A DNA stretch of 20,535 nucleotides, from positions 1 through 20,535 of IMG/VR virus record IMGVR_UViG_3300042888_001649; one strand, given 5' to 3'. Positions 106 through 17,398 of the stretch are shown here, one piece after another. Origin of the DNA: a virus. Every line of letters begins with the position of its first letter. Position 1 is the first letter of the stretch. The position numbers were made by a program, and so were the translations under genes. The notes under the pieces are model-generated. The model was given only the letters and a program-made list of their open reading frames with translations, did not search any database and was not told the origin of the DNA.

Positions 106-1217
106 TGATATTATTTTATACCGCATCACAAGATGCAACTATATACTTACAACAACCTTACCAAAATACTGGTATAGATGAAATGTTAGAAATTTCTAAA
201 GTGTATTATGGTGGCACACCTGATACGAGTAGAGTATTAATTCAGTTTGATACTACTGAAATATCTAAGAGTATAGCAAATCGTACAATACCAAGTGGTT
301 CATTTACTGCATCATTGCAATTAAAAATAACTAAAGCAGACGAAATTGCCGCGAGATTTAATGTAGAGGCATATCCAATTTCTCAAAGTTGGGAAAATGG
401 TACTGGTACTCGTTTTGATAACATTACTACAAATGGTGCAACCTGGTATTATAAAAATGGAGATGACACTTCTACTATTTGGAACAATACATATGTAGAG
501 GGGCAAGGAGCTAGTTTTAACCCCTTTACAACCGGTTCTCAGAGTGGGCTTGGTGGTACGTGGTTTACCTCATCGGTATCCTCACAATCGTTCCAGTACA
601 CCTTAGAAGATATTAATTTAGATGTTACTGAATTTGTTAAAAAATGGAATAGTGGCAGTATAACAAATAATGGTATTATACTTAAGTTTCCAACTGATAA
701 AGAAACTGATTTAGTTGATTATGGTAGTATTAAAATGTTTTCAAAAGAAACTAATACAATTTATCAACCTAAATTAGTTATTACTTATTTAGAAACGGAT
801 GTAGTTAGTGGAAGTTTGACAAACATTACTGATTTTATTAATAGCAGTAGTTATGATGTTTCGTATAGATGCTATTCACCAAATTTAAAAACATCATATC
901 AAGAAGGACAAAAGGTAACACTTAAAATTGATGCAAGAGAATTATATCCAATAAAACAATTTAATACTGCCTTTGTATATCAAGTAAAATATTATTTACC
1001 ATCAACGGCATATTATAGTGTAATTGATACTTTAACAAAAGAAACTATTATAGGATATTCCGATGCAAGTAAAGTTATAAAAGGTCAATTTAATAGTTTA
1101 GTAAAATTAAATTTTCAGAATTGGCCAGTTGGTAGAAATTATACATTATTAGTAAAATCAATTACTAGTGATAATGAAGAAATTTTTGAAATCGGTACAT
1201 TTGATATTTACAAATAA
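105..1217 (+). CDS. Structural protein with DNRLRE-like beta-sandwich domain
   Basis: This 370-residue protein has no signal peptide or membrane segment. Residues about 8-230 resemble the DNRLRE/CBM96-type beta-sandwich: an opening DATIYLQQPYQN..G, then SRVLIQFDT (R followed by an FD strand), a series of beta strands rich in N, G, S and T, and a closing NNGIILKF ... PKLVITY. That family usually sits in extracellular or surface proteins as an adhesion or carbohydrate-binding fold. The remaining C-terminal part (about 235-370) is a second beta-rich region I do not recognise. It overlaps the upstream stop by one base and the next start by one base, so it belongs to a tightly packed operon with two coiled-coil proteins. 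I infer a baseplate or fibre component; carbohydrate binding is possible but not shown. AAAGGGAGAG about 10 nt before the ATG looks like a Shine-Dalgarno but is also coding sequence. Confidence 0.7.
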   Translation: MILFYTASQDATIYLQQPYQNTGIDEMLEISKVYYGGTPDTSRVLIQFDTTEISKSIANRTIPSGSFTASLQLKITKADEIAARFNVEAYPISQSWENGTGTRFDNITTNGATWYYKNGDDTSTIWNNTYVEGQGASFNPFTTGSQSGLGGTWFTSSVSSQSFQYTLEDINLDVTEFVKKWNSGSITNNGIILKFPTDKETDLVDYGSIKMFSKETNTIYQPKLVITYLETDVVSGSLTNITDFINSSSYDVSYRCYSPNLKTSYQEGQKVTLKIDARELYPIKQFNTAFVYQVKYYLPSTAYYSVIDTLTKETIIGYSDASKVIKGQFNSLVKLNFQNWPVGRNYTLLVKSITSDNEEIFEIGTFDIYK

Positions 1218-3559: not shown

Positions 3560-3568
3560 ATATTTATA
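3560..3568 (+). promoter_or_regulatory. ATATTTATA upstream motif (copy 1)
   Basis: Exact ATATTTATA in the 40-nt gap, ending 4 nt before the ATG of the giant tail gene and preceded by TAATAGG. It is one of five exact copies in intergenic gaps of this window. The reverse complement, TATAAATAT, contains the T4 late promoter core. If it acts as a -10 element in the + direction, the transcript would begin at or next to the start codon. Confidence 0.45.
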
Positions 3569-3572
3569 GATA

Positions 3573-6500
3573 ATGGCAATACGACACAATAGACAATATA
3601 TGAAGCCGGTGGATAACTGGGATTATTTATATAATCCAATGGGAGAGTTATTGAATGATGGTAGCCTTTCAGGTGGAGGTGCGTTCGGTGGTGGTGGATT
3701 TGGTGGTGGTGGTGGATTTGGTGGTGATGTTGGAATGCCGGTGCCTGTGCCTAAATCAACCCCCGGAAGTGATATAAAATTAAACTTATCCAATATAAGT
3801 GAATTTAAAAATCAAATTACATTCAATATACAAAATAATGTATATCAAGAAGGTGCTACTGTTTTAATTGATTCAAATACAATTAACGATACACTTTTAA
3901 TTAAACCAATTGTAAATGATAATTTTAAATCAAAAAATTATTCTGCACTAGTAAAGACCGTAATTCCAAAATATATTCGTACAAGTGAATGGGTAACTGA
4001 TTATGGTGGTAATTTTGGATTTAATGCCGGCAGTTCTATGTTTGGGGGGATGGGTGGAAATTCAGGAGTTGGGGGGATGGGGTATTATGATGGCTGGAAT
4101 AGTGGTGGTATTAATACACGTTTAGTAGAAAAAACAGAAAGTGTAAATATTCCTGGTATTAAAATACAACAATTTAATGGTGATAATGTTTATCAAGGTA
4201 GTACGGATTATGAATTACCATTGACCACCGATTTACAATTTGATTTAGATAAAGTTGCGGTAAAAGTAGTAACAAATACAATTACACAAGCTATTCAATT
4301 TATCTCAAATTACAAAAACGATATATTAAATAATGAAGTAAATATTAAAGTTACCTCAAGCGATGTACCAAATGGAGTAGTTAATACAAAAATACAAAAT
4401 GAAGTAAGGTTTGCAAATTCCAATGGGGTAGCGGGTCCTGTTAAAATAGAACTTAGTGGATTTGATAAATTTTTATTTAAAAGTATTAGATGGCAATATA
4501 CTGACAAATTTAGTGAAAATTCTGATTTAAATTTAGGTGATTTCAATGTTGTAAATGATACGGTATTTAATATTGATGCATCGGTTTTTAATAAAAACAT
4601 TTTAATCTTAGTAGAAGTAGAACCAGATAATGCAGATTATCCAGTATTAAAATTAACTACTAATACAATACAACAAAGTATTTTAGAATCAATATATGCA
4701 TCTACAACCGATTCTAAATTAATTACAATTGATTTTGATTTAAAAAATACAGATTTTGTTAAAGTAACTACACCGTATAAACAATATAATGTAGCAGTAA
4801 GTGCGACAGGTTTACTTCGTACAAAAATAGATTTAGATTTAAAGAAAGATTTTTTAAATAATGAGGGTGCATTTAAAATAGCATTAGTTCCAAGTTCCAA
4901 TTTATATGGCGATGGAAATGTGGAATATGTTATTGTTACCTTATCTAAAATATTTGATACACCGATAATTGATAAAATTGATTATCCTACCGATGTATAC
5001 ATACCCTCATATACATTTGGTGATGTTAATTTTAAAGTAACATTTGAGTCCAATTTAGCAACTACTGTATTAGTATATCATTCTAAAGAAGATGCTAATA
5101 CTGCGTTAGGAAAGTTTTCTAATAAAGATTTTATTAGTTTAAACTATAAAGATTTAAAAAATAGAAAAATAATTAATTCACCATTAGATTTATTAATTAT
5201 TCCGTATAATGGAAATGTTAAAGGTGAAATAGAAAGAATTACTATTAATTTTGAAGATGAACAAATATATGTTTCTACCCAAGATTTAAAAACTAGTTTG
5301 TTTGATGCAATTGCCGTTAATTTAAACTTATCATTAGGAAACGAACAAAAATATTTATCTCACTTAGCTTCATTTGATATTGATGACAAAGAAATATTAG
5401 TTTCTAATTGGGATATAGATTACAGTACATTTACCAAATTCAAAAAAGATAGTGTAGGTAATAGTATTCCAGATGGTGAAATAAGTAAAAGTATTGTATT
5501 AAAATTATATGAAGCATTACCTGCTAATATAAACAAGAATGATACATTATGGGTATCTCGTTTAATGTCTTTGCCTATTATCCAAAGAGTAGTAGTAAGT
5601 AGTAAACCGGAAACAAATGCATTACCATTAAGAGCACCAAACTTTAATATAGAAGTTGATTATGTAAAGGGTCAATCTACAATATACGAATCATACGATG
5701 ATTTAATATTAAGTGGTAGTGAATCATCTCAACAAATTGTAGATAAATTACTTTCACAAAATTTTGTAGAAACAGATAGAATTAATATAGATTATTCTAA
5801 TTTTTCTAACTTTATAAAATATAGTAGTGCAGTTGAAAGATTAGCAAACTTTAAATATAAAAAAGAATTAGCAGAATACTATGAGGATAGAATTGGTTAT
5901 TTAACTGATGTACTATATAACGAACAAACACAAAGTATTAATGTAATACAGGATGTAACAAAATATTCTGAAAAATTATCTACATTAGTTAGTGGGTTTG
6001 ATGGTTGGGAAAATAACTTAGTAAGTAGTTCATTGGTATTCACTGCAGATAGTGCTTCATATCAATCATTTCCTGGTGGTAGATTTAATTTAGAAAGTGG
6101 AGAAACTGCATTTAGTAATGATGGTACAACTTATATTACTAATCCAAATACAACACTTACTAATTGGTATTTAGGTACTATGGATTCTGCATCGGTTTAT
6201 GATAATATGAACCTTAATGCTTTAAAAAATAATATTCCACAATTTATAAGTGAAGATGAAAACAATTCAGATTACTTATTGTTCTTAGATATGGTGGGTA
6301 ACCACTTTGATATTCTTTGGAGTTATATTAAAGGTATGACAGACCAAAGGATGATTACCGAAACTAATTCATATGGTATTAATGATGAATTACTTTATAA
6401 CTATTTAGAATCATTTAGTTGGAATGCTAAAAATTTAAATTCAAATAAAAACTTATGGGGATATTTGTTTGGTTATAATGGTGACGGTGTTGGTATTGTA

Positions 6501-8759
6501 GATGGTAAAAGTGTATTAAATGATGCCGATGGATATACAATTACACCTGAACAATATACAAAAACTATTTGGAGAAGAATTGCAAATAATTTACCTTATT
6601 TATTAAAACATAAAGGTTCTAAACGTGGTATAAAAGCATTGATGAGTTCATATGGTATTCCACAATCAATGTTAACCATACTGGAATTTGGTGGACCTGT
6701 TGCAGATGATGCGGCACCTTCTACTTTTACATATGAAACATTAAGTTCTACCTTAGTATTTAATACCGGTTCATATTTAACGTCTAGTTGGAGTGGAGCA
6801 CCGCAAGCAATTGAATTTAGAGTTAAACCAACATATTCATCATCGGTAGATTTAGTAAGTGGCAGTGGATTTAAATTATTTATAAGTGGTGGAGCAAACA
6901 CAACTAATCAAATTGGTAGTTTACAATTAAAAGTGAATGGAACAACAATTTTATCATCATCTGCATATTCATTCTTTGATGGTAATTTTCATTCTATATT
7001 AGTAAATAATCAAAATGGTGCATATACGGCTTATTATGGAAATGCAGAAAAAGATAGAATAGTAAAACAAGGTAGTGTAACAGGTAGTGGTACATTGGCA
7101 TGGAATAGTGGTTCTCAAATTGTATTTGGTAATTTTAATGGAGAAATGGATGAAGTTAGAATATGGAAAACTGCATTAAGTTCTTCTATATTTGATATAC
7201 ATGTATTAGGTAGTGAGGTTATTGTAGGAAATACAATGAAAAGTTCTACCGAAGATTTATTATTAAGATTAGATTTTGAAAATCCACACTCTTTATATCC
7301 ATCTGGTTCTGAAATTTCTAAAATTAAAAACGTAGCACCTATTGCAACTTATATGAACGATGTAAGTGCAAGTGGATTTGATACCGCATCACAATATAAT
7401 AGTAGTTCTTCACAACATTGGAACTACAAATACATTGATAAAGATGTAACAATTACTCTACCAAATACAGGTGCTAATAGATTATCAAATGATAAAATTA
7501 GATTTGAATCACAATACACATTAGCAGGTGAAAAAATAACCGGAAGTGTTGGTGTTGATTTATCTCCTGTTAAAAGAGCAACTAAAAAAGCATTTGATAC
7601 CGCTAAAATGGATTCAAATAGAGTTGGTATATTTTTCTCACCTAATAAAGATTTAGATTTAGATATTGCAAAATCATTAGGTGGTGGAAGTTTGGATGAT
7701 TATATTGGTGACCCTTCAGATGATTATAAAAACACATATAAAAAATTAGATACACTTAGAGAATATTATTTTGAAAGAGTATCTAATAGAAACATTTATG
7801 ATTTTATTAAATTAATTAAATTCTTTGATAAATCATTCTTTGTTAATCTTAAAGAAATGCTGCCGGCAAGAGCAAAGGTAACAGAAGGATTATTAATAGC
7901 ACCGCACTTTTTAGAAAGAAGTAAAGTTAAAAGAAATAAACCAACGGCAATTAATGAACAACATGAAGGAACAATTACTGATACTACAATAACAGAAGTA
8001 AGTAGTACGTTTGATGTGTTAAATACGGATTTAAGTTTATCTGGTTCTTTAGAAAATATTAGTGGTATAAATTTAGGATATGATGTATTTTTAACGGCAT
8101 CAAATGTTTATAATTTTAAAGGTGAGTATGATACATATGATGCAAATATTGATAATATTATATTAGATATAGCAACCGGTCAATACATTACATATGAAGC
8201 TGAGATTGATTATAGAAGAAATGAAGCAACAATAACAACTGAACTTGATTTAATAAACGCTGGTCAAATTATCGGAATGGATGATAACTATATTAATTAT
8301 GGATATAATACTTATTTTAATAATGGATATGGTAAATATCATTATGAAGAAAATGGCACATTTAAATCAAAGGGTGTAAGAGCATTTATAGTAACAAAAC
8401 AAAATACTATTCTTACACAATTAAATCAAAATGGTGTAAGTGGTAGTGAAGCTAATGTTGTAACCTCATCATATTCACAAGAACTAATAGTACAAGATTT
8501 TAATACAAGTGTAGGATTAACAATTGGTGGAAATATTATTGCAATACAAACCGCTAGTGGATATTTACCATCTCATTATATTTATAAAGGAGAGAAACAT
8601 ACCGGAACTCAGAATTTGTTTTATAGAGGTTCTAAGCAAACAATAAACACTACAATTGATGGTAAAGAAGCGGTTGAATCATTTGTAACTAACCCAACTA
8701 CATTAAGAGTAACGGCACAAGGTAGAAGTAATAACGAACCAATCTTAGAAGTAGATTAA
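3573..8759 (+). CDS. Giant tail/baseplate protein with gpI-like segment and LamG domain
   Basis: This 1728-residue protein has several visible regions. A Gly-rich stretch near residues 30-55 and another near 150-178 look like flexible linkers. A long series of beta-rich repeats follows to about residue 700. A helical section around 740-800 (RLANFKYKKELAEYYEDRIGY) leads to about 880-1035, where FLDMVGNHFDILWSYIKGM, LLYNYLESFSWNAKNL and LPYLLKHKGSKRGIKALMSS followed by YGIP resemble the P2 gpI-type tail protein region, which links baseplate to fibre. Residues about 1072-1212 form a LamG/concanavalin-like lectin fold, with GNFNGEMDEVRIWKTALSS as its diagnostic last strands. The C-terminal 500 residues are beta-rich. 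I infer a large distal-tail or baseplate subunit that may contact host glycans. It starts after an ATATTTATA motif; no Shine-Dalgarno. The specific homologue is uncertain. Confidence 0.75.
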   Translation: MAIRHNRQYMKPVDNWDYLYNPMGELLNDGSLSGGGAFGGGGFGGGGGFGGDVGMPVPVPKSTPGSDIKLNLSNISEFKNQITFNIQNNVYQEGATVLIDSNTINDTLLIKPIVNDNFKSKNYSALVKTVIPKYIRTSEWVTDYGGNFGFNAGSSMFGGMGGNSGVGGMGYYDGWNSGGINTRLVEKTESVNIPGIKIQQFNGDNVYQGSTDYELPLTTDLQFDLDKVAVKVVTNTITQAIQFISNYKNDILNNEVNIKVTSSDVPNGVVNTKIQNEVRFANSNGVAGPVKIELSGFDKFLFKSIRWQYTDKFSENSDLNLGDFNVVNDTVFNIDASVFNKNILILVEVEPDNADYPVLKLTTNTIQQSILESIYASTTDSKLITIDFDLKNTDFVKVTTPYKQYNVAVSATGLLRTKIDLDLKKDFLNNEGAFKIALVPSSNLYGDGNVEYVIVTLSKIFDTPIIDKIDYPTDVYIPSYTFGDVNFKVTFESNLATTVLVYHSKEDANTALGKFSNKDFISLNYKDLKNRKIINSPLDLLIIPYNGNVKGEIERITINFEDEQIYVSTQDLKTSLFDAIAVNLNLSLGNEQKYLSHLASFDIDDKEILVSNWDIDYSTFTKFKKDSVGNSIPDGEISKSIVLKLYEALPANINKNDTLWVSRLMSLPIIQRVVVSSKPETNALPLRAPNFNIEVDYVKGQSTIYESYDDLILSGSESSQQIVDKLLSQNFVETDRINIDYSNFSNFIKYSSAVERLANFKYKKELAEYYEDRIGYLTDVLYNEQTQSINVIQDVTKYSEKLSTLVSGFDGWENNLVSSSLVFTADSASYQSFPGGRFNLESGETAFSNDGTTYITNPNTTLTNWYLGTMDSASVYDNMNLNALKNNIPQFISEDENNSDYLLFLDMVGNHFDILWSYIKGMTDQRMITETNSYGINDELLYNYLESFSWNAKNLNSNKNLWGYLFGYNGDGVGIVDGKSVLNDADGYTITPEQYTKTIWRRIANNLPYLLKHKGSKRGIKALMSSYGIPQSMLTILEFGGPVADDAAPSTFTYETLSSTLVFNTGSYLTSSWSGAPQAIEFRVKPTYSSSVDLVSGSGFKLFISGGANTTNQIGSLQLKVNGTTILSSSAYSFFDGNFHSILVNNQNGAYTAYYGNAEKDRIVKQGSVTGSGTLAWNSGSQIVFGNFNGEMDEVRIWKTALSSSIFDIHVLGSEVIVGNTMKSSTEDLLLRLDFENPHSLYPSGSEISKIKNVAPIATYMNDVSASGFDTASQYNSSSSQHWNYKYIDKDVTITLPNTGANRLSNDKIRFESQYTLAGEKITGSVGVDLSPVKRATKKAFDTAKMDSNRVGIFFSPNKDLDLDIAKSLGGGSLDDYIGDPSDDYKNTYKKLDTLREYYFERVSNRNIYDFIKLIKFFDKSFFVNLKEMLPARAKVTEGLLIAPHFLERSKVKRNKPTAINEQHEGTITDTTITEVSSTFDVLNTDLSLSGSLENISGINLGYDVFLTASNVYNFKGEYDTYDANIDNIILDIATGQYITYEAEIDYRRNEATITTELDLINAGQIIGMDDNYINYGYNTYFNNGYGKYHYEENGTFKSKGVRAFIVTKQNTILTQLNQNGVSGSEANVVTSSYSQELIVQDFNTSVGLTIGGNIIAIQTASGYLPSHYIYKGEKHTGTQNLFYRGSKQTINTTIDGKEAVESFVTNPTTLRVTAQGRSNNEPILEVD
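4042..4081 (+). repeat. Direct repeat with G-runs inside the giant tail gene
   Basis: TTGGGGGGATGGG occurs at 4042-4054 and again at 4069-4081, 27 bases apart, both in frame and encoding GGMG within a Gly-rich linker. Runs of six G are conspicuous in such AT-rich DNA and use the GGG glycine codon, rare elsewhere in this gene. Probably a short duplication in a linker; the G-run density could also allow a G-quadruplex, although the middle loop is long. Confidence 0.5.
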
Positions 8760-8786
8760 AAATAATGTAACAAAAAAATATTTTAT

Positions 8787-8795
8787 ATATTTATA
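8787..8795 (+). promoter_or_regulatory. ATATTTATA upstream motif (copy 2)
   Basis: Exact ATATTTATA inside the 55-nt AT-only gap, ending 19 nt before the ATG at 8815. The spacing is compatible with a -10 element and a short A-rich leader without a Shine-Dalgarno. Confidence 0.45.
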
Positions 8796-8814
8796 AAAGA
8801 ATAATAAACAAACT

Positions 8815-9438
8815 ATGGCATACTTAGATAACACAACAATTACAGTAGATGCTATCCTTACCAAAAAAGGTAGAGAGAAATTAGCAGCTGGACAACCTTT
8901 AGCAATTAGTCAATTTGCATTGGGTGATGATGAAATTGATTACCTATTATATGATGCAGCACATCCAAAAGGTTCTGCATATTATGATAATGCAATTTTG
9001 AAAACACCGGTATTAGAAGCATCTCCTGATGAAACTCAGGCGTTGAAATATAAATTAGTAACTTTACCAAAAAACACAACAAGAATACCACAAGTATCTT
9101 TAAATGTTACTGGTATTGCAGCTAAAACAACCGGAGGACAATATCCAATTAATCCTTCAACATCTCCAGCAGGAAATATGAATGGTGGGTATACGGCGGT
9201 TTTAGGTAATAAAAATGCGGGTAGTATTGTAGGAGCAGGTTTAACAAATGTAACTACAACAACAAATACTTTCAGTAATAGTGTAACTGCAACTGCAGAA
9301 GTTGTAAAAGGATTAACATTTACATTTATTCCTAATAGTTCATTGACTTCAACATTAACAACAACATTGACTATATTTGGTAACGAAACTGGTGGTAGTG
9401 TAACTATACCTGTAACAGTTACTTATACAATAGCATAA
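8815..9438 (+). CDS. Phage structural protein (tail/virion-associated)
   Basis: This 207-residue protein begins MAYLDNTTITVDAILTKKGR followed by EKLAAG and QFALGDDEIDY. This N-terminal pattern (new unit, ITxKGREKLA, then a ..GDDEIDY strand) resembles the N-terminal segment of phage tail/fibre proteins, where KGxxxLA precedes a xxGDG strand. The middle holds a hydrophilic segment with paired strands (TQALKYKLVTLP), and the C-terminal 90 residues are a Thr/Ser/Val-rich beta domain with an alternating strand pattern (TLTTTLTIFGNETGGSVTIP), likely Ig-like. It sits between the giant tail protein and another structural gene, 17 nt upstream of the latter. No catalytic motif or signal peptide. I judge it a virion component; its exact place in the particle cannot be read from sequence. 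Confidence 0.7.
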   Translation: MAYLDNTTITVDAILTKKGREKLAAGQPLAISQFALGDDEIDYLLYDAAHPKGSAYYDNAILKTPVLEASPDETQALKYKLVTLPKNTTRIPQVSLNVTGIAAKTTGGQYPINPSTSPAGNMNGGYTAVLGNKNAGSIVGAGLTNVTTTTNTFSNSVTATAEVVKGLTFTFIPNSSLTSTLTTTLTIFGNETGGSVTIPVTVTYTIA

Positions 9439-9455
9439 AAATATAATAAAAGAAT

Positions 9456-10670
9456 ATGGCAACTTTAGGTACAAATACCGGAACACAATTAACCAATGAT
9501 TTAGCAACATATCTTAACCAACAAAAGCAATCAGCTAATGGGGTTATTGATACAAATCAATTGGCTACTATTATTAATACTTATCTTACAACAGGTGAGC
9601 AATTAGTAGCAGAAACTGGAGTAACAACAAACTCAGTATACAAAAAATTCAATACAACTGATATTGTAACTGCTAAAAATGAAATCGTAACAACTGGATT
9701 ATGGAGTGATGATAGTGGAAGTTTAAATACTTTTTTTACCGGTTCTTCTACATCTATTGCGGGTATGAGTGGTTCAGCAACGGCTAATTACTATCATAAT
9801 GTATATGCATCGGCAGCTACAAGTTCTATTGAATTTTCAGTAGCATACGGACATAAATATGGTAGTGGTTCTGCAACATACACAAATAATCCAAATACTA
9901 CATTTGCAACTAAAGCAACTTATTTTCAATATAGAGCTTTATTAACTGATACGGCGGAAACTAGTTTTTATTTTTATTCATCTAGTACACCGGATGGTTA
10001 CGCAACTGATGAAATATATGTAATTAATGTAGCTCGTTCTAATTATAGAGAAAGAATGGATGCTGGAAACTGGCAGATTACTTTAAAGGGAACTAGTGGT
10101 TCATTTACTTTCATAGATAATAGTAATGAAAAATTCAATACTACTAATGCAGGTACAAATGAGTACAACATTGTAAGTGGTACATTAAATTTAGGACAAA
10201 ATATTGATTCGGTTATAAACACATACACCGCATCTAATCAACAAGGATTTGGTAAATTCTATCCTGATTATGGTATTTTAGTATTCAACCCAACCGCATT
10301 GGCGGCTACATTGGGTGCACAAACCATTACTCCATCTGGAACAGGAGTGGATTCATATGATTCACATAAGTTTTTTAATGCAATTAGTGGTGGTGCAAAT
10401 TTTGAAGCAAGAAGAATTGAAAACGTATCAACGGCACACTACTTTGTAAGAGTTAACAATAGAGAATTTAATTTTTCTAATAACCCTACATTTGTAGATG
10501 CAACGGGTTCAATGGCCAATCCTACTTTCAAAGCAGAACCTTATGTATATCCTACTACGGTTGGTTTATATAATGATTCAAATGAATTAATAGCAGTAGC
10601 TAAAACATCTCAACCAATCGCTAAATCTTTTAGTAAAGAATTACTATTAAAGGTTAAGTTAGATTTCTAA
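9456..10670 (+). CDS. Phage structural protein with C-terminal GLYND module (1)
   Basis: This 404-residue protein starts with a helical N-terminal segment (LTNDLATYLNQQKQSANGVI) followed by a large beta-rich body dominated by Ser, Thr, Asn, Gly, Tyr and Phe. The C-terminal 75 residues contain NNREFNFSNNPTFVDATGS and YPTTVGLYNDSNELIAVAKT, ending in SQPIAKSFSKELLLKVKLDF. The same module closes the next gene product (EFNVSTNPTA ... TTIGLYDDNMDMVAVAKLAT), so the two are related by their last domain. The pattern is typical of large structural proteins of T4-like environmental phages. It lies 17 nt after the 207-residue gene; the leader is A-rich with no Shine-Dalgarno, and no ATATTTATA copy precedes it, so it is probably read through from upstream. 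A terminator lies 53 nt after its stop. Confidence 0.75.
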   Translation: MATLGTNTGTQLTNDLATYLNQQKQSANGVIDTNQLATIINTYLTTGEQLVAETGVTTNSVYKKFNTTDIVTAKNEIVTTGLWSDDSGSLNTFFTGSSTSIAGMSGSATANYYHNVYASAATSSIEFSVAYGHKYGSGSATYTNNPNTTFATKATYFQYRALLTDTAETSFYFYSSSTPDGYATDEIYVINVARSNYRERMDAGNWQITLKGTSGSFTFIDNSNEKFNTTNAGTNEYNIVSGTLNLGQNIDSVINTYTASNQQGFGKFYPDYGILVFNPTALAATLGAQTITPSGTGVDSYDSHKFFNAISGGANFEARRIENVSTAHYFVRVNNREFNFSNNPTFVDATGSMANPTFKAEPYVYPTTVGLYNDSNELIAVAKTSQPIAKSFSKELLLKVKLDF

Positions 10671-10680
10671 TAAAATATTT

Positions 10681-10711
10681 GTTTGGGAGTATCGTAGGAC
10701 AAAAACCAAAC
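10681..10711 (+). ncRNA. Inverted repeat downstream of 404-residue structural gene
   Basis: GTTTGG at 10681-10686 pairs perfectly with CCAAAC at 10706-10711, with one further T-A pair outside and a 19-nt loop rich in G and A. It lies between the stop codon and the terminator. It may simply stabilise the 3' end of the mRNA. Weak evidence of function beyond the pairing itself. Confidence 0.3.
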
Positions 10712-10722
10712 ACATAATTAAG

Positions 10723-10749
10723 AACCCAACCCTAAAAAGTTGGGTTTTT
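10723..10749 (+). terminator. Rho-independent terminator
   Basis: AACCCAAC at 10723-10730 pairs with GTTGGGTT at 10739-10746 around an 8-nt loop (CCTAAAAA). The stem can be extended by a G-U and an A-U pair, and it is followed by a U-rich run that includes 10745-10749. It lies 53 nt after the stop of the structural gene. It is the only clear GC-stem terminator in the window, so it likely separates the 8815-10670 transcription unit from the next. On the other strand the run after the stem is weaker. Confidence 0.85.
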
Positions 10750-10759
10750 GTTTAATAAG

Positions 10760-10768
10760 ATATTTATA
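10760..10768 (+). promoter_or_regulatory. ATATTTATA upstream motif (copy 3)
   Basis: Exact ATATTTATA directly after the terminator, preceded by TAATAAG (compare TAATAGG at the giant tail gene) and ending 6 nt before the ATG at 10775. Because the terminator lies just upstream, a new promoter is expected here, which strengthens a promoter reading for this motif. Confidence 0.5.
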
Positions 10769-10774
10769 TAAGAT

Positions 10775-11878
10775 ATGTTAAAACAAATACCTAAATCAGA
10801 TATTAATTTAAGACCTTTTAAGGCTTATAAAAATTGGGATGTTACCAGTGATTCAACTTCAATTGATTATGTAACAACTTTGAGTGGAGAAAATTATACG
10901 GCAAGTGCTGATTTATTAACATCTACTGAATTAAATGAAAAGGGATTATATCATCAACTATATACAATGTATTATAGAGACCCTAATAATCCATTTACAT
11001 CTTATGGTGATATAAAACCAACTACAACTACAATAGATAATGCTAAACAAAGATTATTAGTAGATAGAGCAAGAGTTATAGCAATACCGCAAATAAAATA
11101 TGGCGAACAAATAAAACCATTTTCAATAAACATTTATGATAACGAATTAAATGAAACTATTTTTGATGATGGTCATGGTAATTTAATATCAAATTATAGT
11201 TCATATAATTTTAAATTAATCAATATTGAAACGGGTGAATTTATATTTTACGATGCAAATAATAATGAAATTCAAAGTACAATATTATCGTTAGATATTG
11301 AAACTAATACATTATTTGTAGATGATGAAGCTGCTTTTTATTTATTAACAATAGATGTAGAAGCGGGTACTATTAGTTTTTTAGGTGTATTTAAAAAGAA
11401 AACATTTGATGTACCTACTATTGGTAATGTATTTTATTCACATGGTTTAATTGTTATAACAAAATTAACACAATTAGGTGGAGTAAGATACAATTCATTA
11501 AGTACGTTTAGCGGTTCATACAAATCAACTACTACTATTTATGAAAACGAAGTATTGTTGATTGTTGGCGAGGATGAATTTAATGTATCAACTAATCCAA
11601 CCGCTACGATTGCAACTAATGTTATAACAGGTTCTATATCAACTACATTCGAAGGAATTAAAAAAACTACATATAGTGATAATTATCAATTACCTTCTTT
11701 TAATGCATACGAATATAGTTCATCAATGGACCCTACTGGTTCTTTTATTGCACCTTACATTACAACTATTGGTTTATATGATGATAATATGGATATGGTA
11801 GCAGTAGCTAAATTAGCAACCCCTATTAAATCAACTCCAGACCTTCCTGTAAACTTTTTGATTCGATTTGATACTTAA
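10775..11878 (+). CDS. Phage structural protein with C-terminal GLYND module (2)
   Basis: This 367-residue protein opens with MLKQIPKSDINLRPFKAYKN and has YGEQIKPFSINIYDNEL followed by ..IFDDGHGNLI, then IGNVFYSHGLIVITKL. These strand patterns are typical of beta-rich tail proteins of T4-like environmental phages. The C-terminus shares a module with the preceding 404-residue protein: EFNVSTNPTA, then TTIGLYDDNMDMVAVAKLATP, ending in a short beta strand (NFLIRFDT). The two genes lie either side of a terminator, so the module has probably been duplicated or shuffled between neighbouring virion proteins. The gene starts just after an ATATTTATA motif. No signal peptide, membrane segment or catalytic motif. 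I infer a structural role from context and the module; the precise part is unknown. Confidence 0.75.
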   Translation: MLKQIPKSDINLRPFKAYKNWDVTSDSTSIDYVTTLSGENYTASADLLTSTELNEKGLYHQLYTMYYRDPNNPFTSYGDIKPTTTTIDNAKQRLLVDRARVIAIPQIKYGEQIKPFSINIYDNELNETIFDDGHGNLISNYSSYNFKLINIETGEFIFYDANNNEIQSTILSLDIETNTLFVDDEAAFYLLTIDVEAGTISFLGVFKKKTFDVPTIGNVFYSHGLIVITKLTQLGGVRYNSLSTFSGSYKSTTTIYENEVLLIVGEDEFNVSTNPTATIATNVITGSISTTFEGIKKTTYSDNYQLPSFNAYEYSSSMDPTGSFIAPYITTIGLYDDNMDMVAVAKLATPIKSTPDLPVNFLIRFDT

Positions 11879-11881
11879 CGT

Positions 11882-11890
11882 ATATTTATA
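11882..11890 (+). promoter_or_regulatory. ATATTTATA upstream motif (copy 4)
   Basis: Exact ATATTTATA in the 26-nt gap, starting 4 nt after the previous stop and ending 14 nt before the ATG at 11905. It would drive the 70-residue gene and perhaps the endonuclease I gene, which follows only 2 nt after that gene. Confidence 0.45.
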
Positions 11891-11904
11891 TAAAACAAAA
11901 CACA

Positions 11905-12117
11905 ATGGCAATAATAGACACATACAATAAAAGTGGCATCGCAGCAAAAGTTGATAGTAATGCTAAAACATCGGGATTTACTCCAAAGCAACAATTAGGT
12001 GGTATATCTGAATTTGATTTAAGTGAAAAGGCTTTAGAGAAAAAAAATTTAAATGGTAATGTAACCGCACCATATACTCCTAAGAAAAACTATGAAGCGG
12101 TTACACCTAGAAAATAA
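11905..12117 (+). CDS. Small hypothetical protein
   Basis: A 70-residue basic, hydrophilic protein (MAIIDTYNKSGIAAKVDSNA ... ending TPKKNYEAVTPRK) rich in Lys, Asn and Thr, with no cysteines, no membrane segment and no clear globular core. It may be partly disordered. It follows the second GLYND-module protein after a 26-nt gap carrying the ATATTTATA motif. It is followed 2 nt later by the endonuclease I gene, so it could be a small virion component or an accessory factor co-expressed with recombination genes. I do not recognise it. The frame is intact with a good ATG, and tight packing argues that it is real rather than chance. Confidence 0.65.
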   Translation: MAIIDTYNKSGIAAKVDSNAKTSGFTPKQQLGGISEFDLSEKALEKKNLNGNVTAPYTPKKNYEAVTPRK

Positions 12118-12119
12118 TA

Positions 12120-12524
12120 ATGACAAAAAAAGTTACAAAAAAGGGTTGGGTAGCAAAGAAGAATGGTTATAAGAGTGGATTAGAAGATACCGTTTCCCAA
12201 CAAATAGAGAGTAAAGGAATTAAAGTAGAATACGAAACTGAAAAGGTTAATTATATTATACCTTCCTCACCTCACACATATAGTCCGGATTTTAAATTAC
12301 CCAATAACATTAGGGTAGAAACGAAAGGTAGGTTTGTATTAGCCGATAGAAAGAAACATCTATTAGTTAAAGAACAAAATCCTACCATAGATATTCGTTT
12401 TGTATTTACCAATTCAAAGAACAAAATTAACAAAAAATCCAAAACAACTTACTCCGATTGGTGTGACAAGTATGGATTTAAGTATGCCGATAAGCTGATA
12501 CCAGAAGAATGGTTCTCAGAATAA
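12120..12524 (+). CDS. T7-type endonuclease I (Holliday-junction resolvase)
   Basis: This 134-residue protein aligns along its length with T7 endonuclease I, a dimeric nuclease of the PD-(D/E)XK type that cuts four-way and branched DNA. Matches include SGLEDTVSQQIESKGIKVEY, IIPSSPHTYSPDFKLPNN, VETKGRF and DRKKHLLVKEQNPTIDIRFV. The four catalytic residues are present: E22, D57, E67 and K69, equivalent to E20, D55, E65 and K67 of T7. The C-terminal YADKLIPEEWF closes the family pattern. It starts 2 nt after the 70-residue gene and lies 36 nt before the primase. With the SbcCD fusion downstream it forms a recombination/DNA-processing set that would resolve branched intermediates before packaging. 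No Shine-Dalgarno. The family is certain; the symbol is left blank because T7 gene 3 is a numbered gene. Confidence 0.95.
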   Translation: MTKKVTKKGWVAKKNGYKSGLEDTVSQQIESKGIKVEYETEKVNYIIPSSPHTYSPDFKLPNNIRVETKGRFVLADRKKHLLVKEQNPTIDIRFVFTNSKNKINKKSKTTYSDWCDKYGFKYADKLIPEEWFSE

Positions 12525-12556
12525 TTTGGTAATTCGGACTATTTTCCATATCTTTG
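12525..12556 (+). promoter_or_regulatory. Bacteroidota-type promoter before primase
   Basis: TTTG at 12525-12528 and TATCTTTG at 12549-12556 (matching TAnnTTTG) are separated by 20 nt, the spacing known for the main sigma factor of Bacteroidota. The expected start site is only a few bases after the box, near the ATG at 12561, implying a leaderless or very short-leader transcript. It lies wholly in the 36-nt gap between endonuclease I and primase. Single example, so chance is possible. Confidence 0.45.
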
Positions 12557-12560
12557 GTAT

Positions 12561-13562
12561 ATGGAGATAATACAACTTTTTGATAAATACATAGGACCAA
12601 GCAAACCTCTAAAGAAAAATGAGTATGCATACCATTGTCCTTTCTGTCATCACCACAAACCTAAACTACAAATAAATGATAAGACTTTTAAGTTTCATTG
12701 TTGGACTTGTAATGCAGGTGGTAATCTTATGTACTTAGGTAAGAGAATTGGAATGAGTGATTTTGACTTAAGTGATTTGATTGGTAGATGTGGAATGAGT
12801 GAAGAAGTTAGAAAAAAATTAAAAGATGATTGGGGTGGTTCTATAAAAGAATTGTTAGATAAAATAACAGCAGAAATTGCAGAAGAAGATGATGAAAACA
12901 CATCACAATTATTTTTACCATCTGAATTTAAATCTGCATTAGAATTATCAAATAGTATTACAAATCCATTAGAAAGAAATGCAATATCATATCTTAAACA
13001 AAGAGGTATTACTAAAAAACATATCATTAAATATAACATAGGATTTTGTCCAACAGGATTATATGGTGGTAGAATTATCGTTCCTTCATATGATAGTAGA
13101 AATCAATTAAATTATTTTATAGCAAGAAGTATCTTTGCAGAAGAGAAACAAAAATATAAAAATCCACCTGTATCTAAGGATGTTATAGTATTTTTTAATC
13201 AAATTGATTGGAAACAACCTATTACTTTATGTGAAGGTGTATTTGATGCAATTGCTTTAAAAAGAAATTCTATCCCGTTATTAGGTAAATTTGTACAAAA
13301 AACATTAATGGGGGCTATTAAAAATACCAATCCTGATATCTACATTTGTTTGGATAGTGATGCACAAGAGGATGCAATGGTATTATATAATAAAATAAAA
13401 CCATATGTAAAGTCGGTGAGGAACATTAAGTTAGATAGTAAAGATGCCGGTGAAAATACCTTCCAAAATATTTTGAAATATCAGAAAAATTCCGTAACTT
13501 TAAGTTGGGAAACAGTATTAAGAGAAAAACTATCTAATTTCAGTAGTAGTATATTAAAATAG
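12561..13562 (+). CDS. DNA primase (T4 gp61-like, Zn-ribbon plus TOPRIM)
   Basis: This 333-residue protein has the length of T4 gp61 (342). It should synthesise RNA primers at the replication fork. The N-terminal zinc-binding domain has four cysteines, C26/C29 (HCPFC) and C47/C50 (HCWTC), instead of the CHC2 His. The middle is a helical region with an acidic linker (EEDDEN). A TOPRIM catalytic core follows: E225 and D229 in CEGVFDAIA, then D265 and D267 in CLDSDAQED, with KDAGEN further on. A helicase is not in view, so it must work with one encoded elsewhere. It begins 36 nt after the endonuclease I gene and ends 21 nt before the SbcCD fusion. A TTTG-N20-TATCTTTG sequence lies directly upstream. 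No other in-frame Met occurs before residue 58, which supports the chosen start. Confidence 0.93.
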   Translation: MEIIQLFDKYIGPSKPLKKNEYAYHCPFCHHHKPKLQINDKTFKFHCWTCNAGGNLMYLGKRIGMSDFDLSDLIGRCGMSEEVRKKLKDDWGGSIKELLDKITAEIAEEDDENTSQLFLPSEFKSALELSNSITNPLERNAISYLKQRGITKKHIIKYNIGFCPTGLYGGRIIVPSYDSRNQLNYFIARSIFAEEKQKYKNPPVSKDVIVFFNQIDWKQPITLCEGVFDAIALKRNSIPLLGKFVQKTLMGAIKNTNPDIYICLDSDAQEDAMVLYNKIKPYVKSVRNIKLDSKDAGENTFQNILKYQKNSVTLSWETVLREKLSNFSSSILK

Positions 13563-13583
13563 AATTTATCAAATAAAATATAA

Positions 13584-16500
13584 ATGAATAAATTAAAAAG
13601 GATTTATCACATTGCAGACATTCACATTAGAAATCTAAAAAGACACCAGGAATATAGAGAGGTATTTGACAGATTATTTAATGATATTAAATCTAAGGGA
13701 GTCGATGACTCTCTTATTTATTTAGCGGGAGACTTAGCACACGCAAAATTAGAAATGTCACCGGAGCTTCTTAACGAAATAAATTATTTTCTTAAGAAGT
13801 GCTGTGAATTATGTCCTACCATATTAATCGCTGGAAACCACGATTGTAACTTAAACAATGCTGGTAGATTGGATGTATTAACTCCAATTGTAGAAGCATT
13901 AGATTTACCTAATTTAACTTATTTAAGAAATACTCAAAGTTATACCTATGGGGGTGTAAGATTTGATACATTCTCCATTTTTGATGATAAAGAGAATTGG
14001 ATATTTAAACCATTAACATCAGATACTAAAAATATTGCATTGTTTCATGGACCGGTATTAGATGCAACTACGGATGTTGGTTATACAATTTCCTCTCGTC
14101 ATTTTACATCAGAAATGTTTGATGGATATGATTTAGCTTTATTAGGGGATATACATAGAAGACAAACTATGATTTCTCCTGAAGGATGTAAAGTAGTTTA
14201 TCCAGGTTCTTTAATACAACAGAATCATGGTGAAGCATTAGACAAGCATGGTTATGCTATTTGGAATGTTGATGATTTATCAGTTGAATATGTAGATGTT
14301 CAGAATGATTATGGTTATTATACTTTGCACGTTGAGAATGGTGTTGTGCCAGATGTAACCGATATGCCAATGAAACCTCGTCTTAGAGTGTTCGTATCTA
14401 AAACCGATGCAGCAGATATTAAGAGAGTTACTACGGAGATTAAAAAGAAATATAAAGTAGATGAGTTCACTATTACTCGTACCGACACTTTGGCTCGTTT
14501 AAGGACGGGTACCAAAGATGGTAAATTAAACGTAGGTAATGTGAATGACCCTCAATACCAAGCCGGTCTTATTAAAGATTACTTAGGTAGAAACTATATG
14601 TTGGATAATGAAACATTAGGTAAGATTGAGGATTTGAACAATAAACTAAACAAACGATTAAACGATGATGATTTAGTTAAGAACATAGCTTGGAAACCAA
14701 TTCGTTTTGAGTTTGATAATATGTTCTCTTATGGTGAGGATAATATCGTTAACTTTGAGAATATGAAAGGGTTAATGGGGGTGTTCGCTCCAAACGCTAG
14801 TGGTAAGTCCTCTTTATTTGATGCTCTTTCATTTTGTATATTTGATAAAAGTAGTAGAGCATTTAAGGCAGCTAACATTCTAAACAATCGTAAAACATCA
14901 TTTAGTTGTAAGTTAGAGTTTGATATTAATGATGAGAGATTTTTTATTGAGAGAACTGCTAAAACTACAAAGAAAGGTGATGCGGTTAAATGTGATGTAA
15001 ACTTTTGGAAAATAGAGGGTGGCGAAATTGTAAACTTAAATGGTGATGAACGTAGAGGAACGGATAAAGTAATTGAATCTTATTTAGGAAAGTATGAGGA
15101 TTTTGTATTAACTGCATTATCTTTACAAGGAAACAATTCTTTATTCATTGATAAATCACAATCAGAAAGAAAGGATTTATTAGCTCAGTTTATGGGTATT
15201 AATGTATTTGATAAGTTATATGATTTAGCAAGTGAAGATATTAAAGAAGTTCAGGTCTTATTAAGAAACTTTAAGAGAACTGATTTTACATCTGAATTAG
15301 CAATTGCTGAAAATAAATTAGAAACCTTAAAGGATGAGTATGAGGAATTTGAAATTGAGAAAGAAGGTTACGAAGATAGACAAGATGATTTGAATGAAGA
15401 AATAACTAATCTATCAGCTCAATTAGTTCCTATTGATGGTAACTTAGATATTACTGAATTAGAAAGTAAACAATCAACTTTACAATCCCAAATCACAGGC
15501 TCCGATGCAACTATACAAACCAAATCTTTAAGTATTGGTAAGATAATGGATGTAATGGCTGAGTTGACAATTGCAATTGATAGTAAAAAACAATTTAATG
15601 GTATTGATATAGATGTTGTATATTCCAACTATCAACAACAACAAAAGGATTTAATTGAAGCTACGAAAATTTATGATATTGCAAAAGTACACCTAAGTTC
15701 CGCAGAAGAAACGATAAAACATTTGGATAATCATGAATATGACCCTAATTGTAAGTTTTGTTGTGATAATACTTTTGTAAAAGATGCAATGAGAGTAAAA
15801 GAGTTATTACCTCAATTGAAAGAAGCACTTAAACAAGCAACAATTGATGCAACTGGTATTCAACAAACTTTAGATTCTTGGGAAGGTATTGATGAACAAT
15901 ATTCTCAATTTGAAGATTACAAATCTAAATTGGAAAAAGGTAAAGCCCTTCATAAAACTACATACTTAGAATTAAGTGGATTGATTACTCAAAAAGAATT
16001 GTATGAAGCACAATTAACAGCAGTAGAATTAGATATTGAAAGATACCACGCTAACGAAACTACTATTCAAAACAATGATTCATTAGAGGAACAAATTGAT
16101 ATTAAGAAACAAGAGTTAGCGGGAGTTAGTAAAGACCTAAGAGAGATAGCTGCACGATTATTAGATATGAATGGACAGATAGTTCAAACACAATCTTATA
16201 TTACATCAGTTACCGATAAGATGACAGAAGCAAAAGATTTAGAAGAAAAGTTCCAAATCTACGAATACTACTTAGATGCAGTTAAGAGAGATGGTGTTTC
16301 ATATGAATTGATTGCAAAGGCTTTACCGGTGATAGAAGGTGAGGTTAATAACATCTTACAGCAAATTGTAGAGTTTGGTATCGTATTTGATATGAGTGGC
16401 AAGAATGTGAACGCTAGGATTGTTTATGAGGACCAACATTGGCCATTAGAGATGTGTAGTGGTATGGAAAAATTCGTAAGTGGATTAGCAATTAGAGTTG

Positions 16501-16730
16501 CACTTATTAATGTATGTAATTTACCTCGTCCAAACTTTTTAGTTATTGATGAAGGATTTGGTACATTAGATAGTGACAATTTACAATCTATATTTATGAT
16601 GTTTGATTACCTTAAAACACAATTCGATTTCATTAATATCATTTCTCACTTGGATGCAATGCGAGATATTGTAGATACATTGGTTGAGATTAAAAAAGTA
16701 GATGGATTTTCTCAAATTCAATATAAATAG
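13584..16730 (+). CDS. Fused SbcD/SbcC (Mre11-Rad50, T4 gp47-gp46-like) nuclease-ATPase
   Basis: This 1048-residue single chain joins two proteins that are separate in T4 (gp47 and gp46) and E. coli (SbcD and SbcC). Residues 1-345 are the Mre11-type metallophosphatase with the expected motifs: D12/H14 (ADIH), D50 (AGD), N85/H86/D87 (GNHD), H155 (FHGPV), D189/H191 (GDIH). After a linker, residues 376-1048 are the Rad50-type ATPase: Walker A at 402-410 (APNASGKSS, with Ala for two usual glycines), a Q-loop segment LSLQGNNS, a long coiled coil about 555-920 with the zinc-hook Cys pair C723-x-x-C726 at its tip, signature MCSGMEK at 957-963, Walker B with D989/E990 (LVIDEG), and H1022 (ISHLD). It should trim DNA ends and promote recombination-dependent replication. 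The two halves in one polypeptide fix their stoichiometry. It lies 21 nt after the primase, with no Shine-Dalgarno. All motifs are visible, so I am sure of the family. Confidence 0.95.
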   Translation: MNKLKRIYHIADIHIRNLKRHQEYREVFDRLFNDIKSKGVDDSLIYLAGDLAHAKLEMSPELLNEINYFLKKCCELCPTILIAGNHDCNLNNAGRLDVLTPIVEALDLPNLTYLRNTQSYTYGGVRFDTFSIFDDKENWIFKPLTSDTKNIALFHGPVLDATTDVGYTISSRHFTSEMFDGYDLALLGDIHRRQTMISPEGCKVVYPGSLIQQNHGEALDKHGYAIWNVDDLSVEYVDVQNDYGYYTLHVENGVVPDVTDMPMKPRLRVFVSKTDAADIKRVTTEIKKKYKVDEFTITRTDTLARLRTGTKDGKLNVGNVNDPQYQAGLIKDYLGRNYMLDNETLGKIEDLNNKLNKRLNDDDLVKNIAWKPIRFEFDNMFSYGEDNIVNFENMKGLMGVFAPNASGKSSLFDALSFCIFDKSSRAFKAANILNNRKTSFSCKLEFDINDERFFIERTAKTTKKGDAVKCDVNFWKIEGGEIVNLNGDERRGTDKVIESYLGKYEDFVLTALSLQGNNSLFIDKSQSERKDLLAQFMGINVFDKLYDLASEDIKEVQVLLRNFKRTDFTSELAIAENKLETLKDEYEEFEIEKEGYEDRQDDLNEEITNLSAQLVPIDGNLDITELESKQSTLQSQITGSDATIQTKSLSIGKIMDVMAELTIAIDSKKQFNGIDIDVVYSNYQQQQKDLIEATKIYDIAKVHLSSAEETIKHLDNHEYDPNCKFCCDNTFVKDAMRVKELLPQLKEALKQATIDATGIQQTLDSWEGIDEQYSQFEDYKSKLEKGKALHKTTYLELSGLITQKELYEAQLTAVELDIERYHANETTIQNNDSLEEQIDIKKQELAGVSKDLREIAARLLDMNGQIVQTQSYITSVTDKMTEAKDLEEKFQIYEYYLDAVKRDGVSYELIAKALPVIEGEVNNILQQIVEFGIVFDMSGKNVNARIVYEDQHWPLEMCSGMEKFVSGLAIRVALINVCNLPRPNFLVIDEGFGTLDSDNLQSIFMMFDYLKTQFDFINIISHLDAMRDIVDTLVEIKKVDGFSQIQYK

Positions 16731-16739
16731 ATATTTATT
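16722..16739 (+). promoter_or_regulatory. Palindromic TATAAATA/TATTTATT motif (copy 5, variant)
   Basis: TATAAATA at 16722-16729, overlapping the SbcCD stop, is followed after GA by TATTTATT. The latter is part of ATATTTATT at 16731-16739, ending 3 nt before the ATG at 16743. The two arms make a near-perfect inverted repeat (seven of eight pairs) and combine a forward T4-late-like TATAAATA with the window's own motif. It could be a promoter or operator. A leaderless start is implied if the second half is a -10. Confidence 0.45.
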
Positions 16740-16742
16740 TCT

Positions 16743-17384
16743 ATGAATGAAAAAATACACAATCAATTAACAAGTAAAGGATATTATACAACAACAATAA
16801 ATCCTACTATAACTGAAAAACTAAAACAAATTTTTAGTAAAATAAAAGATATAGAATTTAGAGATGCAACACATACGTCTTGTGGTGAAACGGGTTACAC
16901 ACATGATACCGATTTTGAAGTATTAGAGGAATTAAAAAAAGAATATGCACCATTAAAGAAATGGCAATTCTGGTATTCTAATCATAATTTATATAAATTT
17001 TTAGATAGAGATGAAGTAGAATTTATTAAAGATGAAGTTTTTAGAAGTTTAATACAAGAATGTTATCCTGCTGATTTATACGATTTAGAAAATTGTCATT
17101 TATCTTATACTATGTATAATAAACAATGTTATATAAATCAACATCAAGATGGTATTAGTAAAAATAAAATATGTAATATTTTACTTTATTTAAATGAAGA
17201 TTATAAGGATGGGTATGGTGGTGAATTAGTTATAAATGGTAATGTTGTAGTAAAACCAGAGTTTGGTGCATTGGCAGTATTAGATTTTACAACCGCAAAT
17301 CCAAAACACGAAGTAACCGAAGTGTTAGATGATAACTTTAAACGATTTGCTATTTTAACTTCATTTATATATAATAATAAATAA
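16743..17384 (+). CDS. 2-oxoglutarate/Fe(II)-dependent oxygenase, prolyl-4-hydroxylase-like
   Basis: This 213-residue protein carries the catalytic set of the prolyl-4-hydroxylase-like oxygenases in order: H134 and D136 (INQHQDG, HxD), H189 (NPKHEV) and R201 (KRFAIL), the basic residue that binds 2-oxoglutarate. Between them, CNILLYLNEDYKDGYGGEL is the typical strand-turn-strand of the jelly-roll core. Iron and 2-oxoglutarate would drive hydroxylation of an unknown substrate. Similar oxygenases are common in marine T4-like phages, often beside structural genes. Here it lies between the SbcCD fusion and a giant tail fibre gene, so modification of a virion protein is a reasonable but untested guess; nucleic acid or lipid substrates are also possible. 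It begins 12 nt after the SbcCD stop, with an ATATTTATT motif just before the ATG. Confidence 0.9.
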   Translation: MNEKIHNQLTSKGYYTTTINPTITEKLKQIFSKIKDIEFRDATHTSCGETGYTHDTDFEVLEELKKEYAPLKKWQFWYSNHNLYKFLDRDEVEFIKDEVFRSLIQECYPADLYDLENCHLSYTMYNKQCYINQHQDGISKNKICNILLYLNEDYKDGYGGELVINGNVVVKPEFGALAVLDFTTANPKHEVTEVLDDNFKRFAILTSFIYNNK

Positions 17385-17389
17385 ATGGA

Positions 17390-17398
17390 ATATTTATA
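17390..17398 (+). promoter_or_regulatory. ATATTTATA upstream motif (copy 6)
   Basis: Exact ATATTTATA, preceded by AAATGGA, in the 31-nt gap before the giant fibre gene, ending 17 nt before its ATG at 17416. The spacing suits a -10 element and a short leader (AGAAATACATTCTATAA). Confidence 0.45.

Follow-up and report, generated by a model that had tools for sequence, protein, structure and literature searches.

Late promoters of bacteriophage T4 consist of one 8-bp box, TATAAATA, at −10 and lack a conserved −35 element; RNA synthesis begins roughly one helical turn past the box and involves gp55, gp33 and gp45. For the phages KVP40, 44RR, S-PM2 and Aeh1, late boxes were predicted computationally and linked to homologues of gp55, as described in an excerpt of PMC2988020. 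Jumbo phages with gp23-type capsids ("group 2"), some of them phages of Bacteroidetes, carry sigma factors and no RNA polymerase, and recruitment of the host polymerase has been inferred for them (excerpt of PMC7824862). The polymerase of Bacteroidota does not use E. coli-type promoters; in Flavobacterium the −33/−7 promoter elements are TTTG and TANNTTTG (excerpt of PMC6847099). Among the titles listed in searches of the open-licence PMC literature, none dealt with the motif described below or with a late promoter of a Bacteroidota T4-like phage. Here we describe a box, ATATTTATA (8-bp form TATTTATA), that recurs before genes of a 20,535-base virus fragment forming the whole of its IMG/VR record (IMGVR_UViG_3300042888_001649; hereafter the window) and of its relatives, among them the cultured Flavobacterium phage immuto. 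It is a real, conserved, oriented and promoter-like element, most likely a late promoter working like that of T4 without the T4 consensus. That it is a late promoter and that a phage sigma factor reads it we consider probable; the immuto gp118 family is the candidate reader, paired with the box by inference.

Like the T4 late promoter, the element is a single 8-bp A/T box assigned to the −10 position, has no conserved −35 partner, reads in gene direction and stands before head and tail genes. As in T4, there is a phage protein with a predicted sigma region 2 fold, and no Rpb1-type phage polymerase was found in the records searched. Unlike in T4, the box is TATTTATA, TATAAATA occurs at chance level in intergenic gaps, both gp55 residues facing position −9 are replaced, and the candidate sigma factor carries an extra helical C-terminal domain, with a gp45-like clamp in 7 of 15 relatives and none found in immuto. 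The late box of Aeh1 has drifted at −13/−12 (excerpt of PMC2988020), whereas the drift seen here is at −10/−9. Compared with the group 2 jumbo phages, for which the excerpt of PMC7824862 names no promoter, a promoter was found here, together with a candidate sigma factor that may read it. With the Bacteroidota sigma-A promoter (TTTG / TAnnTTTG) the box probably shares the host core polymerase and perhaps the spacing to the start, but it lacks the TAnnTTTG pattern and marks another set of genes.

Exact copies of ATATTTATA stand on the + strand of the window at 3560, 8578, 8787, 10760, 11882 and 17390, and there is none on its − strand. Five of the six fall in the gaps between genes, which make up 342 bases or 1.7% of the window when bases 1-104 are excluded. 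The copy at 3560..3568 ends 4 nt before the ATG of a 1728-residue gene (3573-8759), that at 8787..8795 lies 19 nt before a 207-residue gene (8815-9438), that at 10760..10768 lies 6 nt before a 367-residue gene (10775-11878), that at 11882..11890 lies 14 nt before a 70-residue gene (11905-12117), and that at 17390..17398 lies 17 nt before a long gene that starts at 17416 and is open at the window end. The sixth copy (8578..8586) is inside the coding region of 3573-8759, and we propose no function for it. Two variants occur on the same strand: ATATTTATT at 16731..16739, 3 nt before the 2OG-Fe(II) oxygenase gene (16743-17384), and the weak ATATTTACA at 1204..1212, within the end of gene 105-1217 and 4 nt before the next ATG. 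All these positions, the spacing of 3-19 nt to a start codon and the single exact + strand copy inside a gene had been listed in the initial annotation and were reproduced. Among 5000 dinucleotide shuffles of the window gaps, 4493 contained no copy, 486 one, 21 two and none more than two. When one mismatch was allowed on both strands of the window, the count (42 against 56.9 expected) showed no enrichment, so that only the exact core, on one strand and in the gaps, stands out.

Conservation of the box differs from gene to gene. We compared 157 loci (L007-L163), taken from two IMG/VR protein searches as the best 80 of 572 and the best 80 of 130 relatives. In each, the 45 nt upstream of orthologous genes were searched for TATTTA[TC][AT] after removal of near-duplicates (at least 41 of 45 positions alike). 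Among distinct upstream regions, the box preceded 55 of 57 orthologues of gene 8815, 48 of 52 of 10775, 36 of 45 of 17416, 7 of 7 of 11905, 6 of 8 of the oxygenase and 2 of 2 of 3573, the last two both with a gap of 4 nt. It was absent before gene 105 (0/27), gene 9456 (0/40), endonuclease I (0/41) and SbcCD (0/47), and rare before 1217 (1/6), 2285 (1/43) and primase (6/37). The division into genes with and without the motif that had been noted in the window is thus a property of the whole clade, except that the copy before 1217 is not conserved; ATATTTACA at 1204 is probably a chance match.

Two cultured phages share genes with the window, Flavobacterium phage immuto (NC_055915, 160 kb), which is annotated with T4-like gp20, gp23, prohead protease and tail sheath, and Microcystis phage Mel-JY01 (PP395634.1). 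In immuto the box also stands before gp107, as it does before gene 8815 of the window. All 20 long related contigs showed a strand bias of ATATTTATA, with 418 copies on the majority strands and 39 on the others in sum, and in the six contigs that were fetched whole the majority strand was confirmed to be the gene strand. These six contigs (83 to 289 kb) and immuto, seven genomes in all, provided 75,571 intergenic bases by crude calls of open reading frames. In these gaps TATTTATA occurred 167 times in gene direction against 15.6 expected from a dinucleotide model, so that the enrichment in relatives, which had been suggested as a check, was borne out. Against gene direction it was counted 23 times, a number that necessarily holds for TATAAATA along the genes as well, where 21.7 were expected; the T4 word is at chance level there. 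Five single-base variants of TATTTATA exceeded expectation more than twofold: TATTTGTA (51 against 6.0), TATTTATT (39 against 15.2), TATATATA (37 against 13.4), TACTTATA (24 against 4.9) and TCTTTATA (11 against 4.5). TATTTGTA is part of a host-type element described below; TACTTATA could be a weaker version of the late box or another kind of signal.

The kinship with the T4 late promoter that had been proposed from the window therefore holds for the kind of element and fails for its direction: the box points along the genes, and compared with TATAAATA in this orientation two of its eight positions differ. Because the A/T word is nearly palindromic, its reverse complement matches the T4 core. 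Use of the reverse strand, with a T4 box pointing away from the genes, was rejected, as the word read along the genes is TATTTATA, with TATAAATA in this direction at chance level in the gaps. When gap 8-mers were ranked, ATATTTAT or TATTTATA was among the top ten in seven of eight relatives, in G004 only ATATTTAT; in Mel-JY01 other words filled the list and neither was present. The same ranking of the T4 late region placed TATAAATA first. In Mel-JY01, TATTTATA lay within 40 nt before an ATG in 13 of 35 cases on the + strand and in 1 of 28 on the − strand. Irrespective of gaps, this position was taken by 170 of 270 copies of TATTTATA in the seven genomes and by 130 of 204 in 80 gp118 loci, which were not dereplicated; masked permutation words gave 1606 of 6507. 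The flanks of 226 aligned sites are A/T-rich, with mainly A before TATTTAT (0.74) and after it (0.71), and the 20 bases before the box hold no strong second element. An upstream TAATARG, reported from the window, is not conserved among them, and a T7-like promoter (TAATA...), which that flank had suggested, was dropped.

In immuto, box-bearing genes are concentrated in the structural module. TATTTAT[AT] was found there within 80 nt before 12 of the 17 late genes listed, including those for terminase, portal, sheath, tube, hub and tape measure. Considering immuto genes with a gap of at least 15 nt, the box preceded 19 of 59 in the structural module and 9 of 102 elsewhere (p = 0.0004), with module borders set by us from the annotation. 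Host-like elements were distributed otherwise: a block of small unknown genes had them before 19 of 39, the replication block before 8 of 63 and the structural module before 4 of 59. Gene-specific conservation, strand bias and the place before late structural genes of immuto agree with the initial annotation in its proposal of a phage-specific late promoter.

The window is divided in the same way as immuto. Its contrasting element is a host-type promoter, TTTG, 20 nt, TATCTTTG (12525..12556, + strand), 4 nt before the primase ATG at 12561. TAHHTTTG preceded 28 of 38 primase orthologues, in 23 of them together with an upstream TTG. For ten other window genes (1217 and 3573 left out) it was present in 0 to 7 upstream regions, with the upstream TTG in at most one, and the full host-type element was found before 0 of 56 orthologues of 8815, 1 of 62 of 10775, 0 of 6 of 11905, 0 of 7 of the oxygenase and 0 of 44 of 17416. 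Since the primase element matches the published −33/−7 elements of Flavobacterium and immuto has a Flavobacterium host, Bacteroidota are the likely hosts of the clade. At about 22-77 kb of immuto (L164-L165) there are at least 12 near-identical long elements, AGTTG... followed after about 20 nt by TATATTTAGGTA and in many cases by TCAATAATTAAAA, mostly before small unknown genes; probably they are early host-type promoters with an extended conserved start region.

The distance between box and ATG bears on the kind of message that would be made. The classes 3-7, 8-11 and 12-30 nt contained 24, 5 and 119 of the 170 boxes with an ATG within 40 nt, compared with 239, 168 and 726 of 1606 masked permutation words. 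The difference between the 3-7 and the 8-11 nt class gave p = 0.010, an optimistic value as the sites are partly orthologous; in 52 dereplicated loci, 24 of 145 boxes fell at 3-7 nt and none at 8-11 nt. The commonest ATG distance of host-type promoters in the same genomes is 4 nt. Together with the published start of transcription 4-5 nt after the box in F. johnsoniae (excerpt of PMC6847099), this would place +1 on or next to the A of the ATG. For the late box, RNA would start about 5 nt downstream, and leaderless messages from the boxes 3-7 nt before an ATG, as the initial annotation had suggested, appear plausible for these copies, the statistical signal being modest and the sites not independent. 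In F. psychrophilum 5.5% of the messages are leaderless (excerpt of PMC9723704). Just upstream of the box, a terminator-like hairpin was found in 19 of 170 cases; among 2570 control ATGs, internal ones included, 3 had such a hairpin.

A sigma-like factor was also sought, as the initial annotation had proposed, and the family of immuto gp118 emerged, with a weak sequence link. Relatives of gp118 were present in 20 of 22 records, the two without one being T4 and a 102-kb fragment, and in 17 of 18 once T4, the record of the query itself and two contigs obtained through gp118 were set aside. In immuto the T4 late-sigma profile phrog_234 gave one weak match, inside gp118 (genome scan E 0.008); phrog_12791 matched only T4 among 20 records. 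An AlphaFold2 model of gp118 (predicted local distance difference test score, pLDDT, 73.9; predicted template modelling score, pTM, 0.43) could be realigned to sigma region 2 of 4lup_A over 91 of 91 residues (root mean square deviation, rmsd, 2.3; Z 9.1) and of 2o7g_A over 84 of 88 (rmsd 2.2). T4 gp55 from the promoter complex (7d7c_F) appeared in the second row, with 115 of 137 residues aligned (rmsd 7.6, Z 9.9). With few exceptions the 50 structural rows were sigma factors or chains of sigma-polymerase complexes, two of the structure titles naming RPSH and RPSB, which we take to be sigma-H and sigma-B. In a library of viral structures most of the named top rows were phage sigma factors, and the late factor of Vibrio phage Kuja ranked 13. 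The weight of this structural match would rest on the uniformity of the list and on the coverage of the full domain. We regard the gp118 family as a putative sigma factor with a predicted region 2 fold, distantly related to T4 gp55. Beyond this fold, gp118 has a C-terminal extension of about 100 further residues predicted to form four helices; modelled alone (pLDDT 81.6) it matched nothing convincing: the best Z was 5.3, and a single sigma-A chain reached Z 5.0, so that it may or may not be a region-4-like domain. In all five genomes compared, the 4 kb preceding the sigma gene contained a host-type element closer to this gene than any late box, at 0.7 to 2.8 kb, in immuto only as the variant TATATTTAGG. 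This arrangement would fit, if weakly, a factor made early.

The residues that contact the promoter in T4 invite a comparison. In its promoter complex, T4 gp55 stacks Y97 against A(−12), contacts A(−9) through N13 and H95, and bonds A(−8) through T99 (excerpt of PMC7892883). Relative to TATAAATA, TATTTATA retains A at −12 and −8 and has T instead of A at −10 and −9 (T4 numbering). Pocket residues were read from alignments of 36 gp118-family members to gp55 in three MAFFT modes. The equivalent of Y97 was Y in 36 of 36 members and in all three modes. At N13, T (32) or G (4) was found, at H95 F (22) or Y (14), at T99 T (15), G (15), Q (5) or S (1), at F86 F (28) or Y (8), at L54 I, V or M, and at R57 T (29), K (6) or R (1). 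The joint change of the −9 residues and the −9 base, next to a fixed −12 reader, is a correlation between two distant families, drawn from aligned sequences.

T4 late transcription also involves the clamp gp45. Of 15 relatives, the T4 profile detected a gp45-like clamp in 2; when the clamp of one of them served as query, 7 of 15 were positive, its source included. Neither query found one in immuto, a close relative of immuto gave one doubtful match (E 0.003), and several of the records without a clamp are fragments. Clamps (G009:C1:210424-211134 and relatives) are thus patchy across the clade, and immuto is annotated with genes for family A DNA polymerase. A phage-owned RNA polymerase of the Rpb1 type was rejected, as its domain PF00623 was absent from 15 of 15 records while the controls rang in 14 of 14. 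No match to the single-subunit RNA polymerase family PF00940 was obtained, a search in which the control was silent everywhere, so that absence is not shown. Taking these strands together, one may propose that specificity switched within the gp55-type sigma lineage, the pair of residues contacting −9 changing along with the −9 base (A to T) and the −12 reader being kept, and that late transcription in the immuto branch is clamp-free, aided by the C-terminal domain of the sigma factor, with part of the late messages leaderless. This combined proposal is tentative, and we think it rather doubtful that all its parts hold.

Several observations weigh against a late promoter read by gp118. The sigma gene lies outside the window and is deduced from near-identical relatives. 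By hmmscan, gp118 matched phrog_234 at E 0.5, and matches to this profile as weak as that of the genome scan occurred in two further contigs, in reading frames interrupted by stops, away from their gp118 relatives; given this background, the genome-scan match in gp118 alone proves nothing. Five of 42 gp118 members matched phrog_234 (best E 0.028), and unrelated-looking families of unknown function scored equally; Sigma70_r2 was found in 10 of 36 members (best E 0.011). An hhalign comparison with 22 gp55 proteins aligned 98 columns colinearly at E 0.0019 and a probability of 14%, and the gp118 family profile had no match among PDB sequences at E 1. Foldseek returned no PDB match for the model at E 0.001, in a list made up mostly of sigma factors with some unrelated rows, and Z values near 10 can be reached by chance with mostly helical models (the tool warns of values under about 13). 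Among the pocket residues, departures from gp55 extend to R57, L54 and, in most members, T99, even though A(−8) is kept, so that residues and bases do not pair in a clean one-to-one manner. On the side of the box, 5 of the 17 late genes listed for immuto lack it within 80 nt, including the major capsid gene, and 9 of 102 genes outside the structural module carry it. Of the TATAAATA copies in gene direction, 32 of 95 in the seven genomes lay within 40 nt before an ATG, as did 43 of 94 in the 80 gp118 loci (L179-L258, not dereplicated), and on these counts a minor use of boxes other than TATTTATA is possible. An explanation of these matches as mere overlap with TATTTAT was not borne out (4 of 43 and 5 of 32); in the gp118 loci some of them lie in coding sequence just before the gp118 start and others in gaps. 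Finally, Mel-JY01, a relative that carries the box, was recorded from Microcystis and not from a member of the Bacteroidota.

Among other explanations, the one with most in its favour keeps the late promoter and changes the reader: a host alternative sigma factor, or host sigma-A with a phage activator, would recognise the box, and gp118 would do another job. The box does share TATTT with the host-type element TATATTTG, and gp118 is a putative reader with a weak sequence link to gp55. The box nevertheless lacks the TAnnTTTG spacing, the host-type word TATTTGTA is enriched separately (51 against 6.0), gp118 relatives are found in 17 of 18 independently chosen records of the clade, and the gp118 model is sigma-like. 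This makes such a reader unlikely in our view. An operator for a phage DNA-binding protein would likewise show up as a short conserved sequence whose distance from genes varies; a strand bias in 20 of 20 contigs is not what it leads one to expect, nor did the aligned sites reveal a second conserved promoter element beside the box, and we grant an operator only a very small probability.

A signal for translation initiation comes to mind because the box is close to start codons and Bacteroidota lack Shine-Dalgarno sequences (excerpt of PMC6847099). Yet among the orthologues of gene 8815 the distance to the ATG runs from 19 to 37 nt, adjacent genes that also need translation have no box (0/40, 0/41 and 0/47), and some boxes come after terminator-like hairpins. 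We ruled this explanation out on the variable spacing and rate it slightly below even the operator. Chance, finally, would have A/T-rich gaps and the low one-mismatch counts of the window on its side, but 0 of 5000 shuffles reached the observed number, relatives show 167 copies against 15.6, and conservation differs by gene, which leaves chance with next to no probability.

A late promoter read by a phage sigma factor suggests the following course of events. The window is a member of a large clade of T4-like phages, whose hosts are probably Bacteroidota. The host holoenzyme would transcribe early and replication genes, such as primase in the window, from Bacteroidota −33/−7 promoters. From such host-type promoters the phage would also make the gp118-family sigma factor, distantly related to T4 gp55, which would bind the host core polymerase and bring it to TATTTATA boxes in front of late genes, those for tail and head among them. 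Recognition of the box by gp118 and late expression of the box genes are both inferred.

If so, an early/late map becomes readable for a large phage group in which few genes have names; relatives of one window gene are encoded in at least 572 IMG/VR stretches. As late sigma factor of the clade we thereby propose the product of a core gene that carries the annotation hypothetical. If true, a change in DNA recognition by such sigma factors would be a directly testable case of promoter and sigma factor changing together, and the box could supply late promoters for Bacteroidota.

In Mel-JY01 a TTG...TATATTTG element precedes primase (L168, before 182020) and TATTTAT-type boxes precede several late genes (L168, L169). 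In view of this combination of a host-type primase element and late boxes, the true host of Mel-JY01 may be a Bacteroidota companion rather than Microcystis itself. GGAG-like words stand before the ATG of several of its genes.

The window holds 13 genes, counted from the list of open reading frames and all on the + strand. PHROG families matched four of the 13; with Pfam, applied to ten of the 13, they name endonuclease I, a DnaG-type primase, a fused SbcD-SbcC and the 2OG-Fe(II) oxygenase. Between the gene preceding 10775 and the box at 10760 lies a hairpin (10723..10746), which the scan classified as terminator-like for the − strand alone; inspection by eye shows TTTGTTT after it on the + strand. 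The SbcD-SbcC gene (13584-16730) encodes a single fused protein of 1048 residues with an SbcD-like part (phrog_100 at 2-302) and an SbcC-like part (phrog_77 at 349-1047). For the oxygenase (16743-17384), the PHROG match carries the label DNA endonuclease, which looks mistaken.

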